Source: a virus. From it: a stretch of 32,513 nt of DNA. Numbering within the stretch: position 1 is the stretch's first letter; the number at the start of each line of letters is the position of its first letter. The notes beneath the pieces were generated by a model. The model worked only from the letters and a program-made list of their open reading frames with translations. It searched no databases and was not told the DNA's origin. Location of the stretch: positions 1-32,513 of IMG/VR virus record IMGVR_UViG_3300034374_011922; one strand, given 5' to 3'. This document shows positions 3,532-31,936 of this stretch, piece after piece. The position numbers and the translations under genes were made by a program.

Positions 3532-4104
3532 ATGGCAGGCTTACCACATTTTGATAACTCTACAGCGGCTACTAATTATTACGAACCAATATTTTTAAAC
3601 CAGTTTGAGGTAATTATAAATCTACCTTCGGTTATACAAGGAACGAATGATGCTCTATTAGTTGAGCATGTTACAGATATTACAGGACTTCCTGAATTAA
3701 CTGGTGTAGCAACAGTAGATCAATACTATAAATTCGCTAGACGTACTTTTGCGTCAGGTGTACCTAAAAAGACAGACGCTCAGTTAAAAGTTAATTTTGA
3801 AGTTAACTTAAACGAGTCGAACGATGCTTATGTTTACAATATGATGAGAGCATGGGGAGATTTAACGTTTGATCCTTTAAATGGTAGACAAGGTTTAAAA
3901 AAGGATTATATAGGATCTATTAAAGTGGTTTTATTTAATAAAGCACAGGAAATATTTAGAGAATTTAATTTTAATCCAGCTTATTTATATGATACATTAA
4001 CTGTAATGGATTTAGGATATAAGAAAGATGGATTATACAAATTAACAGCAAACTTCCAGTGCGATAGCTACAAAGAAACAAGAATAGGTGCTATTGAAGT
4101 ATAA
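3532..4104 (+). CDS. 19: Tail tube protein, T4 gp19-like
   Basis: The 190-aa product has the length and pattern of the T4 gp19 tail-tube family, which stacks as hexameric rings inside the contractile sheath and forms the channel for DNA. Typical features are the N-terminal segment YEPIFLNQFEVIINLP, a central basic and polar region, and the C-terminal KVVLFNKAQEIFREFNF...LYDTLTVMDLGYKKDGLYKLTANFQCD beta-rich block (shown in pieces). It has its own late-type promoter and is followed 17 nt later by the acidic 320-aa gene. In T4 the sheath gene is adjacent to gene 19; here the sheath lies 13 kb away beyond the replication block. Confidence 0.9.
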   Translation: MAGLPHFDNSTAATNYYEPIFLNQFEVIINLPSVIQGTNDALLVEHVTDITGLPELTGVATVDQYYKFARRTFASGVPKKTDAQLKVNFEVNLNESNDAYVYNMMRAWGDLTFDPLNGRQGLKKDYIGSIKVVLFNKAQEIFREFNFNPAYLYDTLTVMDLGYKKDGLYKLTANFQCDSYKETRIGAIEV

Positions 4105-23019: not shown

Positions 23020-23438
23020 GTGAAAGATGATATGAGAGGATTAAAGATTACCTCTAACATAATCGTTTACTACAAATTATCGTTGCTTTCTGTATCTTTT
23101 GTCAAAGACTAACTCATTTTAAACTTGTACTCATTTAAAACATTATTAGGACCACTATAGTCTTGGAAACACCTTACCACGCAAACGTAATGGTTATTCA
23201 GTCATTAAATGGGATTTTTGTATTACCCATAAACGATTTGCGAATCTTTTAGATTCTTAATATATCATGCACCTGTATTCTAAGAGCTATCTTAGTTCAA
23301 CATTCTCATTAGAGTAGGCCTTTTTATCCGGCCCTGTTGCGATCCATCGATCTAATACATTCCATTATAGGCTTCGCTAAACCTATTATTCTGGCACATA
23401 TCAATGTCATCCACCCGTCGGCTTTTGACACCTTTCAC
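23020..23438 (-). ncRNA. Large structured non-coding RNA (about 419 nt), family unknown
   Basis: This fills most of a 578-bp gene-free stretch and is transcribed on the minus strand between its own promoter-like element and terminator. The ends pair: GUGAAAG (23438-23432) with CUUUCAC (23026-23020). Just inside, UGAUAUG (23403-23397) pairs with CAUAUCA (23034-23028). Between the 5' arms lies a hairpin GUGUCA/UGACAU (23431-23404), and the 3' arm abuts hairpin AGAGG/CCUCU (23055-23035). Further perfect stems: AUAGGUUU/AAGCCUAU (23386-23367), CUAAGA/UCUUAG (23295-23280), GAAUCU/AGAUUC (23256-23242), GCAAA-CGU/ACG-UUUGC (23241-23233 with 23188-23181), AAGACUA/UAGUCUU (23164-23158 with 23111-23105), UUUUAAA/UUUAAAA (23140-23117). 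No coding frame of interest. It does not match tmRNA, RNase P or group I intron signatures I know. Confidence 0.78.
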
Positions 23439-23718: not shown

Positions 23719-24291
23719 TTATTCTATTATTTCGTCAATTACTCCATAAGAAAGCGCTTCTTTAGAATCCATGTACCAATCCTGTTTGGTTTTTAAAATA
23801 TCTTTTAATTTAGCTTTAGATATCTTAGTAAGATCTAGAGTTATGTTTTCAAATTTCTGTTGAAGTCTTTTTGTTTCTTTATAGCTCTCTTCCATATCTT
23901 GAGTTTTACCCCAAAATCCAGTAGAAACTTGATGATACATTGGAGTAGCATGTTTATATGCAAATCTTTTATGACCAGAGATAAGAATCATAAAGCCACA
24001 AGACATTGCTGCTCCTGTAGCATACGTATGAATAGGGGTAGTGGACTTTTCCATTATTCCAAGCAATCCCATACATTGATATACGTATCCACCGTAACTA
24101 TCAATCATTATCTTAATAGGTTTTCTAACGTAGTCTATATCATACACTCCGTATAATTTTTCTAGATGATCATCATCTTCATTTATTCTAAGAATATTTC
24201 TAGATAATAATTCAATTGATTCTAGATTTACATCCTTTGCAAAAAACAATGTTCTATCCAAAGGAAGAGGTAAACTGTTCATGTCTGCCAT
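23719..24291 (-). CDS. clpP: ClpP-like serine protease
   Basis: The 190-aa protein has the ClpP fold markers: a beta strand and turn PIKIMIDSYGGYV (glycine-rich oxyanion region), the catalytic serine in ATGAAMSCGF (S97), the histidine in TPMYHQVSTG (H120) and the aspartate in KQDWYMDSKEALSYGVID (D171). Length and spacing match host ClpP, which forms a barrel that degrades unfolded proteins with a Clp ATPase. A phage copy could act with host ClpX or process phage proteins such as head precursors; no ATPase gene is seen next to it. It follows the GMP reductase-like gene after 30 nt. Confidence 0.9.
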   Translation of the reverse strand: MADMNSLPLPLDRTLFFAKDVNLESIELLSRNILRINEDDDHLEKLYGVYDIDYVRKPIKIMIDSYGGYVYQCMGLLGIMEKSTTPIHTYATGAAMSCGFMILISGHKRFAYKHATPMYHQVSTGFWGKTQDMEESYKETKRLQQKFENITLDLTKISKAKLKDILKTKQDWYMDSKEALSYGVIDEIIE

Positions 24292-24321
24292 ATATAATTG
24301 ATTTTTTTAATAATTTAGGTT

Positions 24322-25350
24322 TTATTTTTTAAACCTTTTATAAGAGTTATCTGTAATATTTAAAATATCGCAACCTCCAATAAAAGATTCTAGAGATCTT
24401 GAATCAGTATAACTCATAGCAGATCTTAGATAATGTTCAAAATTATCTACCCAACTTGATAGAGTATATTCTACTTTTCTAATCTCTGAAATGCCTTCTG
24501 AAGTTTTAATTTCTTCCCTTCCCCATTTTCGTTGAACCTCTTTAGTGGACATGCCTCTAAACTTTTTAAATATAGAAATACCTGAGTTAAATTTCTCCAA
24601 TGCCTCTGCGTGGGTTAGTTCATTTAAATCTAGATGTTTTCCAAATTGAGATTCATACATACAAGTTGCACAACTTTCCAATGCTTTATTAAAAATAGAA
24701 CCCAACATAACAAAGTCGGCACCTAAAGCTAAAGCTTTTATTATATCAGAGTATGTTTTCATTCCTCCATCTGCAACTATCTTAGCAGGAGTATCGAGAT
24801 TCATGGATTCTTGATAACATTCTTGAATAAGTGAAGCCATGGGGTAGCCCACGCCTGTTTGTTGAGTAGTTAAACAACCTGCTCCGTTACCTATTCCTAT
24901 TCTAATAGCATCAGCTCCAGCTTCAGACAATAATCTATATGTTTTTGGGTGAGCAACATTACCAACCATTAGATAAATATCTTCTCCATATTCATTTTTA
25001 ATGATTCTGGTGATGCTTTCTAAATCTTTGATGTGACCATTAGCAGTATCTATTAAGTAACCTGAGTGTCTCTTAATGTTACCACTTTTAACCAGATTTA
25101 TCATACCGGAAAGAGAATATGATTCTATTCCATCATGACTTGTTTTTTCACCCCTAGGTAAACATGATATTATTCTATTGCTAGTAAAGAAGTGTTCATT
25201 TTCACTAGAAATAACAGTATCCATAGGTGCAGTTATAAGAGGTAATTTTCCATCTTTATAATAGATGTCTATATCTCCCCTTGAAGTAACGTTAGTTTGA
25301 ATACTAGGACTTATTAATATATCATTAAAGTCTACTTTATTTCTATTCAT
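24322..25350 (-). CDS. guaC: GMP reductase / IMP dehydrogenase-family enzyme
   Basis: TIM-barrel purine enzyme. It carries the N-terminal FNDILISPS element, the phosphate/NAD region VADGGMKTYSDIIKALALGA followed by DFVMLGSIF, and the catalytic cysteine loop GIGNGAGCLTTQQTGVGYP. The TGVGYP and GADFVMLG wording and the absence of CBS domains favour GMP reductase (GMP + NADPH to IMP) over IMP dehydrogenase. FRGMSTKEVQ matches the later flap segment. I chose the ATG at 25350, which overlaps the GroES-like stop by 8 nt; an in-frame ATG at 25377 would overlap by 35 nt. It would shift the guanine/adenine nucleotide balance during infection. Confidence 0.86.
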   Translation of the reverse strand: MNRNKVDFNDILISPSIQTNVTSRGDIDIYYKDGKLPLITAPMDTVISSENEHFFTSNRIISCLPRGEKTSHDGIESYSLSGMINLVKSGNIKRHSGYLIDTANGHIKDLESITRIIKNEYGEDIYLMVGNVAHPKTYRLLSEAGADAIRIGIGNGAGCLTTQQTGVGYPMASLIQECYQESMNLDTPAKIVADGGMKTYSDIIKALALGADFVMLGSIFNKALESCATCMYESQFGKHLDLNELTHAEALEKFNSGISIFKKFRGMSTKEVQRKWGREEIKTSEGISEIRKVEYTLSSWVDNFEHYLRSAMSYTDSRSLESFIGGCDILNITDNSYKRFKK

Positions 25351-25642
25351 ACTCATCAAGCTTAACTTCATTAACATCGTCTAATACTGCGATTACTTCA
25401 TTAGACATAATGACATAATGAGGAGTATCATTATAAACTATATCTATTCCAGCGTATCTATTACATAGAACAATGTCACCAGGTTCAACTTTCATTGGAT
25501 TATGAGTAGTTCCTTCTCCACAAGCAATAACTGTTCCAATATTAGGTCTTTTTACGGCTTTACCGGGTAAAAGGATTCCTGATTTTGTTTGAGTTTCCTT
25601 TTCAATAGGTTTAATTAAAATTCTTTCGTATAATGGTTTCAT
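25343..25642 (-). CDS. groES: GroES-like co-chaperonin
   Basis: The 99-aa protein has the full GroES pattern: MKPLYERILIKPIEKETQTK, the mobile-loop region GILLPGKAVKRP that contacts GroEL, IGTVIACGEG, VEPGDIVLCNRYAGIDI, and the final strand EVIAVLDD. T4 uses its own co-chaperonin gp31 to fold the capsid protein with host GroEL, and this is probably the equivalent here, though much closer to bacterial GroES than gp31 is. No GroEL gene is in the window. It overlaps the RNase H stop by 4 nt (ATGA). Confidence 0.93.
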   Translation of the reverse strand: MKPLYERILIKPIEKETQTKSGILLPGKAVKRPNIGTVIACGEGTTHNPMKVEPGDIVLCNRYAGIDIVYNDTPHYVIMSNEVIAVLDDVNEVKLDEYE

Positions 25643-30013: not shown

Positions 30014-31936
30014 ATGAGTCTTTTGAAGAAAATTAAGAGCGGATTTGAATCAAATTCTGAAGATATTAAAATTACAGAATATTTAAGCCTTTGTAAAAAA
30101 GATAAAGCGGTGTATTCAACACCAGCGGAGAGAATGTTAGAAGCGATAGGAGAGCCTGAGTTAGTAAACACTAAAGATGATCCTAGATTAAGTAGAATAC
30201 ATTCAAATAAAAAAATTAAAAGATACCCTTCATTTAAGGACTTCTATGGTATGGAAGATACTATTGAACAGATTGTATCATTCTTTAAGCATGCAGCACA
30301 AGGACTAGAAGAAAAGAAACAAGTTTTATATTTATTAGGACCTGTTGGTGGTGGTAAATCCTCGTTAGCAGAGAGACTAAAGCAATTAATGGAAAATAGC
30401 CATATTTATGTTTTAGTAGCAGATGGAGAAATGTCACCGGTGCTAGAAAATCCTTTAGGTTTATTTTCTTCTTATAAAACAGAATTAGAAGAAGAATATG
30501 GTATCTCAGGAAGATATATTCCATCATGTGCTTCACCTTGGGCAACCAAGAGATTAGCCGAGTTTGGAGGAGATATTACTAAATTCTCAGTTAGAAAAAT
30601 TAAGTTATCAATTGCATCTCAATTAGGTATTTCAAAAACTGAACCTGGTGATGAAAACAACCAAGATATTTCAGCTTTAGTTGGTAAAGTAGATATTAGA
30701 AAACTGGCTGAATACTCACAAGATGACGCAGATGCTTATAGCTATTCTGGTGCGTTATGTAAGTCTAATCAAGGTTTAATGGAATTCGTTGAGATGTTTA
30801 AAGCACCGATTAAGGTATTACACCCATTATTGACTGCAACACAAGAAGGAAACTTTAATGGTACAGAAAACCTACCAGCAATTCCTTTCCAAGGTGTTAT
30901 ATTAGCACACTCAAATGAATCAGAATGGGAGACATTCTCAAACGATAGAAAAAACGAAGCATTCCTAGACAGGGTTTATATTGTAAGAGTTCCTTATTGT
31001 TTAAGAGTAGATGAAGAAGTTAAAATCTATGAAAAACTATTAAATCATTCTTCATTATCTGAAGCACCGTGTGCTCCTAAAACATTAGAGTTATTAGCTC
31101 AATTTTGTATTATGACAAGATTGATTGATCCTGAAAACTCAACAATGTTTTCTAAAATGAGAATATACAACGGTGAGAACTTAAAAGAAGTTGACCCTAA
31201 AGCTAAATCACTTCAAGAATATAAAGACTTTGCTGGAATCACAGAAGGTATGGACGGTATTTCAACCCGTTTTGCATTTAAAGTATTATCTAAAGTATTT
31301 AACCATGATTCTGATGAGATTGCAGCTAATCCAGTACATCTTTTTTATGTATTGGAACAAGAAATTATTAAACAACAATTGCCAGCAGATTTACAAGATT
31401 ATTATTTAAGTATTCTTAAATCTACAATCTCTTCTAAATACGCTGAGTTTATTGGAGATGAAATTCAAAAAGCTTATGTTGATTCATATCAAGAATATGG
31501 TCAAAATCTTTTTGAAAGATATATAACGTATGCAGACCACTGGTGCCAAGACAACGACTACAGAGATCCTGAAACCGGTCAACAATTCGATAGAGGTTCA
31601 CTTAATGAAGAGCTAGAAAAAATTGAAAAACCAGCAGGAATAGCTAATCCAAAGGATTTTAGAAATGATTTAGTTCAATTCTATTTAAGACATAAAGCTA
31701 AACATGGAGAATCTCCTAAATGGGAATCTTATGAAAAGATCAAGAATGTTATTGAAAAAAGAATCTTTTCTAAAACTGAAGATTTGATTCCAGTTATATC
31801 TTTTTCTACAAAAACATCTAAAGATGAAGAGAAGAAACACTCTGAATTTATTGAAAGAATGAAAGAAAGAGGATACACTAATAAACAAATTAAATTATTA
31901 ACAGATTGGTATTTAAGAGTTAGAAAAAGCAATTAA
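30014..31936 (+). CDS. prkA: PrkA-family serine protein kinase (YeaG-like)
   Basis: AAA+-related serine kinase. The 640-aa sequence is close to E. coli YeaG (644 aa) over its whole length as I recall it: AERMLEAIGEPELV, DFYGMEDTIEQIVSFFKHAA, Walker A GPVGGGKS (109-116), KTEPGDENNQDISALVGKVD, FVEMFKAPIKVLHPLLTATQ, LAHSNESEW, EAFLDRVYIVRVPYCLR, PVHLFYVLEQE, EKIEKPAGIANPKDFRN and the ending WYLRVRKSN. All segments expected for activity are intact. In bacteria PrkA is induced by starvation or sporulation and works with YeaH/YhbH and SpoVR. Here it is in a late unit with yeaH 14 nt downstream. It was probably acquired from a bacterial genome. The phage role is unknown. Confidence 0.95.
   Translation: MSLLKKIKSGFESNSEDIKITEYLSLCKKDKAVYSTPAERMLEAIGEPELVNTKDDPRLSRIHSNKKIKRYPSFKDFYGMEDTIEQIVSFFKHAAQGLEEKKQVLYLLGPVGGGKSSLAERLKQLMENSHIYVLVADGEMSPVLENPLGLFSSYKTELEEEYGISGRYIPSCASPWATKRLAEFGGDITKFSVRKIKLSIASQLGISKTEPGDENNQDISALVGKVDIRKLAEYSQDDADAYSYSGALCKSNQGLMEFVEMFKAPIKVLHPLLTATQEGNFNGTENLPAIPFQGVILAHSNESEWETFSNDRKNEAFLDRVYIVRVPYCLRVDEEVKIYEKLLNHSSLSEAPCAPKTLELLAQFCIMTRLIDPENSTMFSKMRIYNGENLKEVDPKAKSLQEYKDFAGITEGMDGISTRFAFKVLSKVFNHDSDEIAANPVHLFYVLEQEIIKQQLPADLQDYYLSILKSTISSKYAEFIGDEIQKAYVDSYQEYGQNLFERYITYADHWCQDNDYRDPETGQQFDRGSLNEELEKIEKPAGIANPKDFRNDLVQFYLRHKAKHGESPKWESYEKIKNVIEKRIFSKTEDLIPVISFSTKTSKDEEKKHSEFIERMKERGYTNKQIKLLTDWYLRVRKSN

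Follow-up and report, generated by a model that had tools for sequence, protein, structure and literature searches.

A 419-nt structured RNA with two manA-type cores in a marine phage related to huge phages

Comparison with homologues shows that the minus strand of a phage genome fragment (IMG/VR record IMGVR_UViG_3300034374_011922; the whole stretch of 32,513 nt that was analysed is referred to as the window) encodes a real structured RNA at 23438-23020, and that this RNA consists of two consecutive cores, each homologous to manA RNA (RF01745), enclosed by one set of closing helices. We read it, with a probability of about 0.6, as a free-standing phage RNA, untranslated and about 420 nt long, in which two manA-type domains are fused; it would be transcribed from its own promoter with the assistance of Nus factors and would act in trans as a bivalent scaffold. 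The manA family is known. The literature searched contained no description of a tandem manA RNA, and to that extent the two-core architecture and the likely free-standing role are new.

Two manA-type cores within one set of closing helices

The RNA occupies the gap between a gene of 73 aa (23716-23495, minus strand) and an exonuclease gene (RNase_T; 22916-22089, minus strand). As the original prediction had claimed, the gap is gene-free, holding no ORF of at least 60 aa. The minus strand folds more stably than its dinucleotide shuffles (z -2.89, 0/100), and the plus strand displays no excess (z -0.23). Five distinct versions of the RNA are available, from the window and from L124, L125, L140 and L244 (L-numbers are the labels of the compared loci); they measure 414-423 nt, are about 60-92% identical, and constitute alignment A5. 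Three of them are about 90% alike, and the covariation therefore counts few events. When the structure was guided by manA (86 pairs), 97.4% of the alignment cells are paired and 45 pairs have changed on both sides, compared to 20.8 ± 3.0 in shuffles and 4-10 in slid structures. The full structure of 106 pairs is 97.5% paired, and 54 of its pairs have changed on both sides (shuffles 25 ± 3.3, slid structures 6-12). The original prediction of a discrete structured RNA had been staked on covariation in homologues; the 54 of 106 pairs, together with the folding signal of the minus strand (z -2.9), bear it out.

The two ends of the RNA are joined by P0, in which GUGAAAG (23438-23432) pairs with CUUUCAC (23026-23020), followed by a run of four to six U in all five versions. 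Inside it P1 pairs UGAUAUG (23403-23397) with CAUAUCA (23034-23028), and three of its pairs have changed on both sides. Both 7-bp helices had been predicted, as a closing stem (GTGAAAG/CTTTCAC) and an inner exact helix (TGATATG/CATATCA), and both are present and supported by compensatory versions in L244, where P0 reads GTGGAAG/CTTCCAC, with one A-U to G-C change on both sides, and P1 reads TGGTGTA/TACACCA. Between the 5' strands of P0 and P1 stands a 5' hairpin (PA/PAb, 23431-23404) with five pairs changed on both sides, which the alignment with canonical manA identifies as the counterpart of the manA hairpin located before P1. Comparison shows that P0 and P1 enclose both cores. In core 2 the hairpin P5b covaries strongly in A5 and carries an invariant loop, GAGUACAA (23132-23125).

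Rfam was scanned twice, at gathering thresholds and permissively. At the gathering thresholds the RNA has no match. In the permissive scan RF01745 matches core 1 (23396-23209, minus strand) with 47.3 bits (E 5.2e-11) and core 2 (23204-23035, minus strand) with 25.9 bits (E 1.1e-4), both under the family's gathering score of 55.2 bits; the range of 25.9-47.3 bits covers the window phage and its sister contigs. Each match spans model positions 23-182 of 192, and two consecutive matches to the same model positions make the RNA a tandem of two manA cores with one closing set. The claim of an unknown family without a match consequently does not hold. The Rfam check that had been proposed with it returned no match to tmRNA or RNase P and a sub-threshold match to a known family, manA. 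The models of GOLLD, ROOL and OLE matched in neither scan, and a weak match to RAGATH-22 was judged to be chance.

In both cores helices P2-P8 follow in order with conserved sequence motifs, and the helices covary; GAAUAA, UAAGGUG and GGUA...AAUCC are common to the cores and to manA. The homology was also approached from the opposite direction, with covariance models built from the five phages, R1 from core 2 alone and R2 from core 1 alone, and searched over 36 sources. R1 finds canonical manA at the exact positions in 31 of the 33 non-training sources and otherwise nothing up to E 1; its E-values are modest (0.004-0.34), yet the positions coincide with manA. R2 does so in 20 of the 33, with one additional chance match in the window. 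Neither model detects the other core, which indicates more divergence between the cores than would be expected after a recent duplication. Several features that define RF01745 are lacking, and we therefore regard the RNA as a variant derived from manA rather than as an ordinary member of the family. In manA, P1 closes one core after the 5' hairpin; here the hairpin is present, but P1 spans two cores. The 5' UTR position of manA is likewise lacking, as the downstream neighbour varies and is convergent in L125 and L140.

Pseudoknots and apparently exchanged P7 strands

The unpaired columns of A5 were scanned for helices present in all five sequences, which gave an equivalent pseudoknot in both cores and two helices between the cores. 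The comparison supports a pseudoknot kept in each core, formed between the P2a loop and sequence on the 3' side of P7b. In core 1 the loop sequence GCGAA (23377-23373) would pair with UUCGC (23244-23240), and in core 2 UUGC (23184-23181) with GUAA (23070-23067); both are 100% paired and covarying. The core 1 pseudoknot has, in addition, a covarying alternative partner within core 2 (columns 62 x 378). The 3' strands overlap the P7b hairpins by 2-3 nt, so that pseudoknot and hairpin cannot both form fully. The original description of manA marks a P2a-loop pseudoknot with a question mark.

The two inter-core helices point to an exchange of P7 strands. In SW1 (7 bp) the 5' strand of core 1 P7 (23270-23264) pairs with the 3' strand of core 2 P7 (23063-23057); over the five sequences it is 94% paired, with three pairs changed on both sides. 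SW2 (4 bp) joins the remaining strands, the 3' strand of core 1 P7 (23235-23232) and the 5' strand of core 2 P7 (23084-23081), and is 100% paired with three of its four pairs changed on both sides. Taken together the exchanged P7 is 96.4% paired, and 6 of 11 pairs have changed on both sides. P7 drawn within each core was rejected, being 82% paired with 2/9 pairs changed on both sides and little excess over shuffles. When the unpaired columns were permuted 300 times, a helix with three double-changed pairs arose in 0/300. One swapped helix is nested within the other, and together with the two P7b arms they would form a four-way junction. Folded singly, none of the five versions has the intact swap in its minimum-energy structure; L140 and L244 show part of it, and the window, L124 and L125 none. 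Covariation supports P7 strands that appear to be exchanged between the cores and, with P0 and P1 around both cores and a pseudoknot in each, the RNA looks like a covalently fused, intertwined manA dimer.

Predicted transcription signals, neighbouring genes and relatives

Upstream of P0 the five versions share a promoter-like block, with a -10 element TATAAT (23482-23477, minus strand) in four of them and TATTAT in L124, ending 36-49 nt before P0. A weak -35-like sequence, TTAAAC (23505-23500), lies 17 nt before the -10 and overlaps the end of the 73-aa gene. The promoter of the original prediction, TATAAATAA with its likeness to T4-type late promoters, is present at 23471-23463, but it is degraded in L125 and was for that reason rejected as a conserved promoter; what is conserved is the TATAAT just upstream of it. 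Just before P0 stands a boxA-like box, GTTCTTTGATA (23455-23445), conserved in all five versions a few nucleotides before the helix (ACGTTCTTTGA, ACGTTCTTTAA or ATGTTCTTTGA). Compared with the boxA consensus GYTCTTTAANA (PMC5725501), the L140 box, GTTCTTTAAAA, is perfect and those of the window, L124, L125 and L244 have one mismatch each; the box is short, and 0.25 chance matches to AYGTTCTTTRA are expected in the window. The L140 box is identical to the boxA of the CRISPR array of L. pneumophila Lens, which raised the expression of that long untranslated array about tenfold (PMC7862264). Both the TATAAT block and the box are retained even where the upstream gene differs, in L140 and L244.

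Downstream of P0 a hairpin with a T-run resembling an intrinsic terminator occupies 23005-22970 (minus strand, -12.3 kcal/mol); a simple terminator scan, which allows only short loops, misses it. L124, L125 and L140 carry a hairpin and T-run of unrelated sequence at this position (-12.3 to -16.5 kcal/mol, the window included). In L244, T6 follows P0 and there is no clear hairpin terminator, so that the predicted terminator stands for four of the five versions. By comparison among the versions we infer the promoter, the boxA, the terminator (4/5) and the swap.

The neighbouring genes are not constant. Upstream the window and L125 have IMPDH, ClpP and the 73-aa gene, L124 has ClpP and the 73-aa gene plus a further ORF of 109 aa, and L140 and L244 have the IMPDH gene directly; ClpP and the 73-aa gene are missing from the corresponding place in these two. 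Downstream lies the co-directional RNase_T exonuclease in the window, a co-directional tRNA (anticodon TGC; by its sequence a tRNA-Ala, truncated where the contig ends) in L124, a convergent sheath gene in L125 and L140, and in L244 a possible ORF of 39 aa followed by a convergent gene of 416 aa. Comparison shows that no gene is fixed on either side of the RNA, which is what a free-standing RNA gene predicts. As a separate observation, the window carries consecutive phage-borne genes for GroES (Cpn10), an IMPDH/GMP-reductase-like and a ClpP-like protein at 23719-25642 (minus strand).

The relatives were reached through the upstream ClpP-like protease (L124, 89% identical over the region, and L125/L126, 88%), through the junction pattern (L139/L140, 63% identical) and through the IMPDH-like protein (L244). 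A further contig, that of L129 and L123, comes from the window phage itself and is nearly identical (99.6% over 8.8 kb). All five versions come from a single clade of marine phages, which are relatives of huge phages. Judged by its proteins the window phage is itself such a relative; the PrkA-like protein shares 81-83% identity with its counterparts in the huge uncultured phages LR756502 and LR745206, and for the sheath the closest relatives are LR756500, Flavobacterium phage MaF61 and Lak phages. The PrkA-type serine kinase gene (30014-31936, plus strand) is also 65% identical to that of Enterobacter phage LAU1. Among 77 loci of more distant relatives R1 and R2 gave weak matches only (E at least 0.2) and no convincing copy; two whole huge-phage records likewise held no convincing copy of the tandem RNA, and a DNA search of phage records returned no tandem manA. 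Pattern matches in L138, L142, L143, L150 and L179, and a weak match inside a CDS of MaF61, were judged to be chance.

Canonical manA loci were surveyed for comparison. With a cut-off of at least 10 of 12 consensus bases, a near-perfect sigma-70 promoter was found in 70 of the 78 canonical loci (L003-L122) with enough upstream sequence, its -10 ending 5-16 nt before manA; random windows gave 22/780. This spacing suggests that these RNAs start their own transcripts, and position 1 of canonical phage manA appears to lie about at the transcription start. A terminator-like hairpin is found in ten of 81 canonical loci, and a boxA-like box within 90 nt of manA in 0/81. In many, among them L015, L063, L092 and L099, the -35 TTGACA lies in the loop of the upstream gene's terminator-like hairpin, as in GAGGGTGCTTGACACCCTCTTTTTTT, a fused terminator and promoter. 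Four loci (L025, L102, L060 and L007) have a tRNA 0-14 nt after manA on the same strand, tRNA-Gly (gap 0) or tRNA-Asn (gap 3 and 14). In P-TIM68 the gene after canonical manA is on the opposite strand. L097 holds two canonical manA RNAs (124-314 and 3643-3835) that are 3.3 kb apart and not in tandem. L176 and L178 are short contigs with canonical manA, binned to Flavobacteriales and to a gammaproteobacterial MAG, and are possibly phage contigs.

A probable free-standing RNA and its alternatives

According to our hypothesis the RNA would be transcribed from its own TATAAT promoter. The leader boxA-like site, predicted from sequence, probably recruits host NusB/NusE, which would protect the polymerase from Rho termination while it crosses a long, structured and untranslated stretch, comparable to the situation in rRNA operons. 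Transcription would stop at the RNA's own terminator in most versions. P0 and P1 would then close the two ends and the intertwined two-core fold, a manA dimer on one chain, would form. The folded RNA would most likely act in trans as a bivalent binding scaffold with two manA pockets, each taking one partner; the putative partner could be a protein, a metabolite or an RNA, and a protein or RNA seems as likely as a metabolite. We infer the function of the box, the action in trans and the nature of the partner. The RNA suggests that the manA fold can function as an RNA in its own right, beyond a role as a switch ahead of genes.

Three alternatives have to be weighed against this reading. Since manA is classed as cis-regulatory and as a possible riboswitch (Rfam; Weinberg et al. 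2010), the RNA could be a tandem leader in which two ligand-sensing manA aptamers control the terminator and hence the exonuclease gene. For canonical manA a cis-regulatory view is possible, because many of these RNAs precede particular genes; gp32-like and transaldolase-like families (by sequence) are each downstream of 16 of 76 canonical loci. In the window a terminator and a co-directional gene do follow, and with the exonuclease there and the tRNA in L124 both co-directional, a leader role could be envisaged in these two. However, the next gene is convergent in L125 and L140, a tRNA in L124, and in L244 the possible 39-aa ORF with a convergent gene behind it. Moreover, the terminators share no sequence, and inspection by eye shows no conserved stretch in which they overlap P0 or P1 and from which an antiterminator could form. 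We consider such a leader unlikely, and a riboswitch acting on the terminator was rejected for want of a fixed downstream gene.

Less probable again is an element in the 3' untranslated part of the upstream operon's mRNA, where it would serve to stabilize or process that mRNA. Such a role would fit the location of the RNA at the end of a co-directional gene run, as well as canonical manA lying directly after the major capsid gene gp23 in five, and after pstS in three, of the annotated cyanophages (L157-L169). Against it, the promoter-like block and the boxA-like box remain where the upstream gene changes from the 73-aa gene to IMPDH, and canonical manA, standing 5-16 nt after its own -10 in 70/78 loci, tends to start its own transcripts. 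Finally, a structured RNA of a new family that resembles manA by convergence or chance would agree with two scores below the curated cut-off and with cores that do not find each other in R1 and R2, but it is very improbable given two independent matches in order and register, identical helix order, common motifs, an equivalent pseudoknot position in both cores, and reciprocal models that match canonical manA and almost nothing else.

The free-standing, two-core reading can be extended, and we do so tentatively, as we hold the extension to be rather doubtful. It would take manA to be a domain that works as a dimer, of which the phage RNA is a fused, strand-swapped, stand-alone and Nus-assisted form, and canonical manA may then dimerize in trans by P7 exchange. 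If canonical manA does dimerize, the family would be placed with RNA-only complexes such as GOLLD and ROOL. Since 2010 manA has been listed as a riboswitch candidate, and the mix of downstream genes fits no obvious ligand; two intertwined cores without a fixed gene argue for a function of the fold's own. If our reading is true, the phage RNA would exemplify covalent RNA dimerization through strand exchange, and also the expression of a non-coding RNA by a phage with the help of a boxA-like site; it offers a compact target of 420 nt for cryo-EM, pull-down and deletion.

Among known systems manA itself is closest. Each core has P2, P2a, P3, P4, P5, P6, P7 and P8 in order with the conserved motifs, a 5' hairpin precedes P1, and a pseudoknot leads from the P2a loop to the P7 region. 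Unlike manA, the phage RNA has two cores in one P1, an extra outer helix P0 and a P7 that appears exchanged; it scores below the Rfam cut-off, is without a fixed downstream gene, and has a boxA-like leader and, mostly, its own terminator. The phage that carries the tandem RNA is a relative of huge phages rather than of cyanophages. The tandem glycine riboswitch also consists of two copies of one fold in a row, and the phage RNA shares this arrangement; in the phage RNA, however, the versions have no common downstream gene, the copies appear intertwined and the closing stems are shared.

As in boxA-led rRNA operons and some CRISPR arrays (PMC5725501, PMC7862264), a boxA-like leader site comes before a long untranslated RNA and next to a helix that joins its ends, although in the phage RNA the box would have its function on the evidence of sequence only; the rRNA leader-trailer helix is the stated subject of PMC10250234. 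GOLLD and ROOL occur in phages or prophages, frequently close to tRNAs, and the likeness to them in the original prediction stands for the setting, a phage with a tRNA adjoining in one relative, and fails for sequence, where no Rfam match links them. The phage RNA differs from GOLLD, ROOL and OLE in architecture as well, and it is shorter than GOLLD. Like them it is a large and elaborate RNA, and the RNA-only homo-oligomers that all three form by cryo-EM (PMC12286853) resemble the fused dimer that we propose here.
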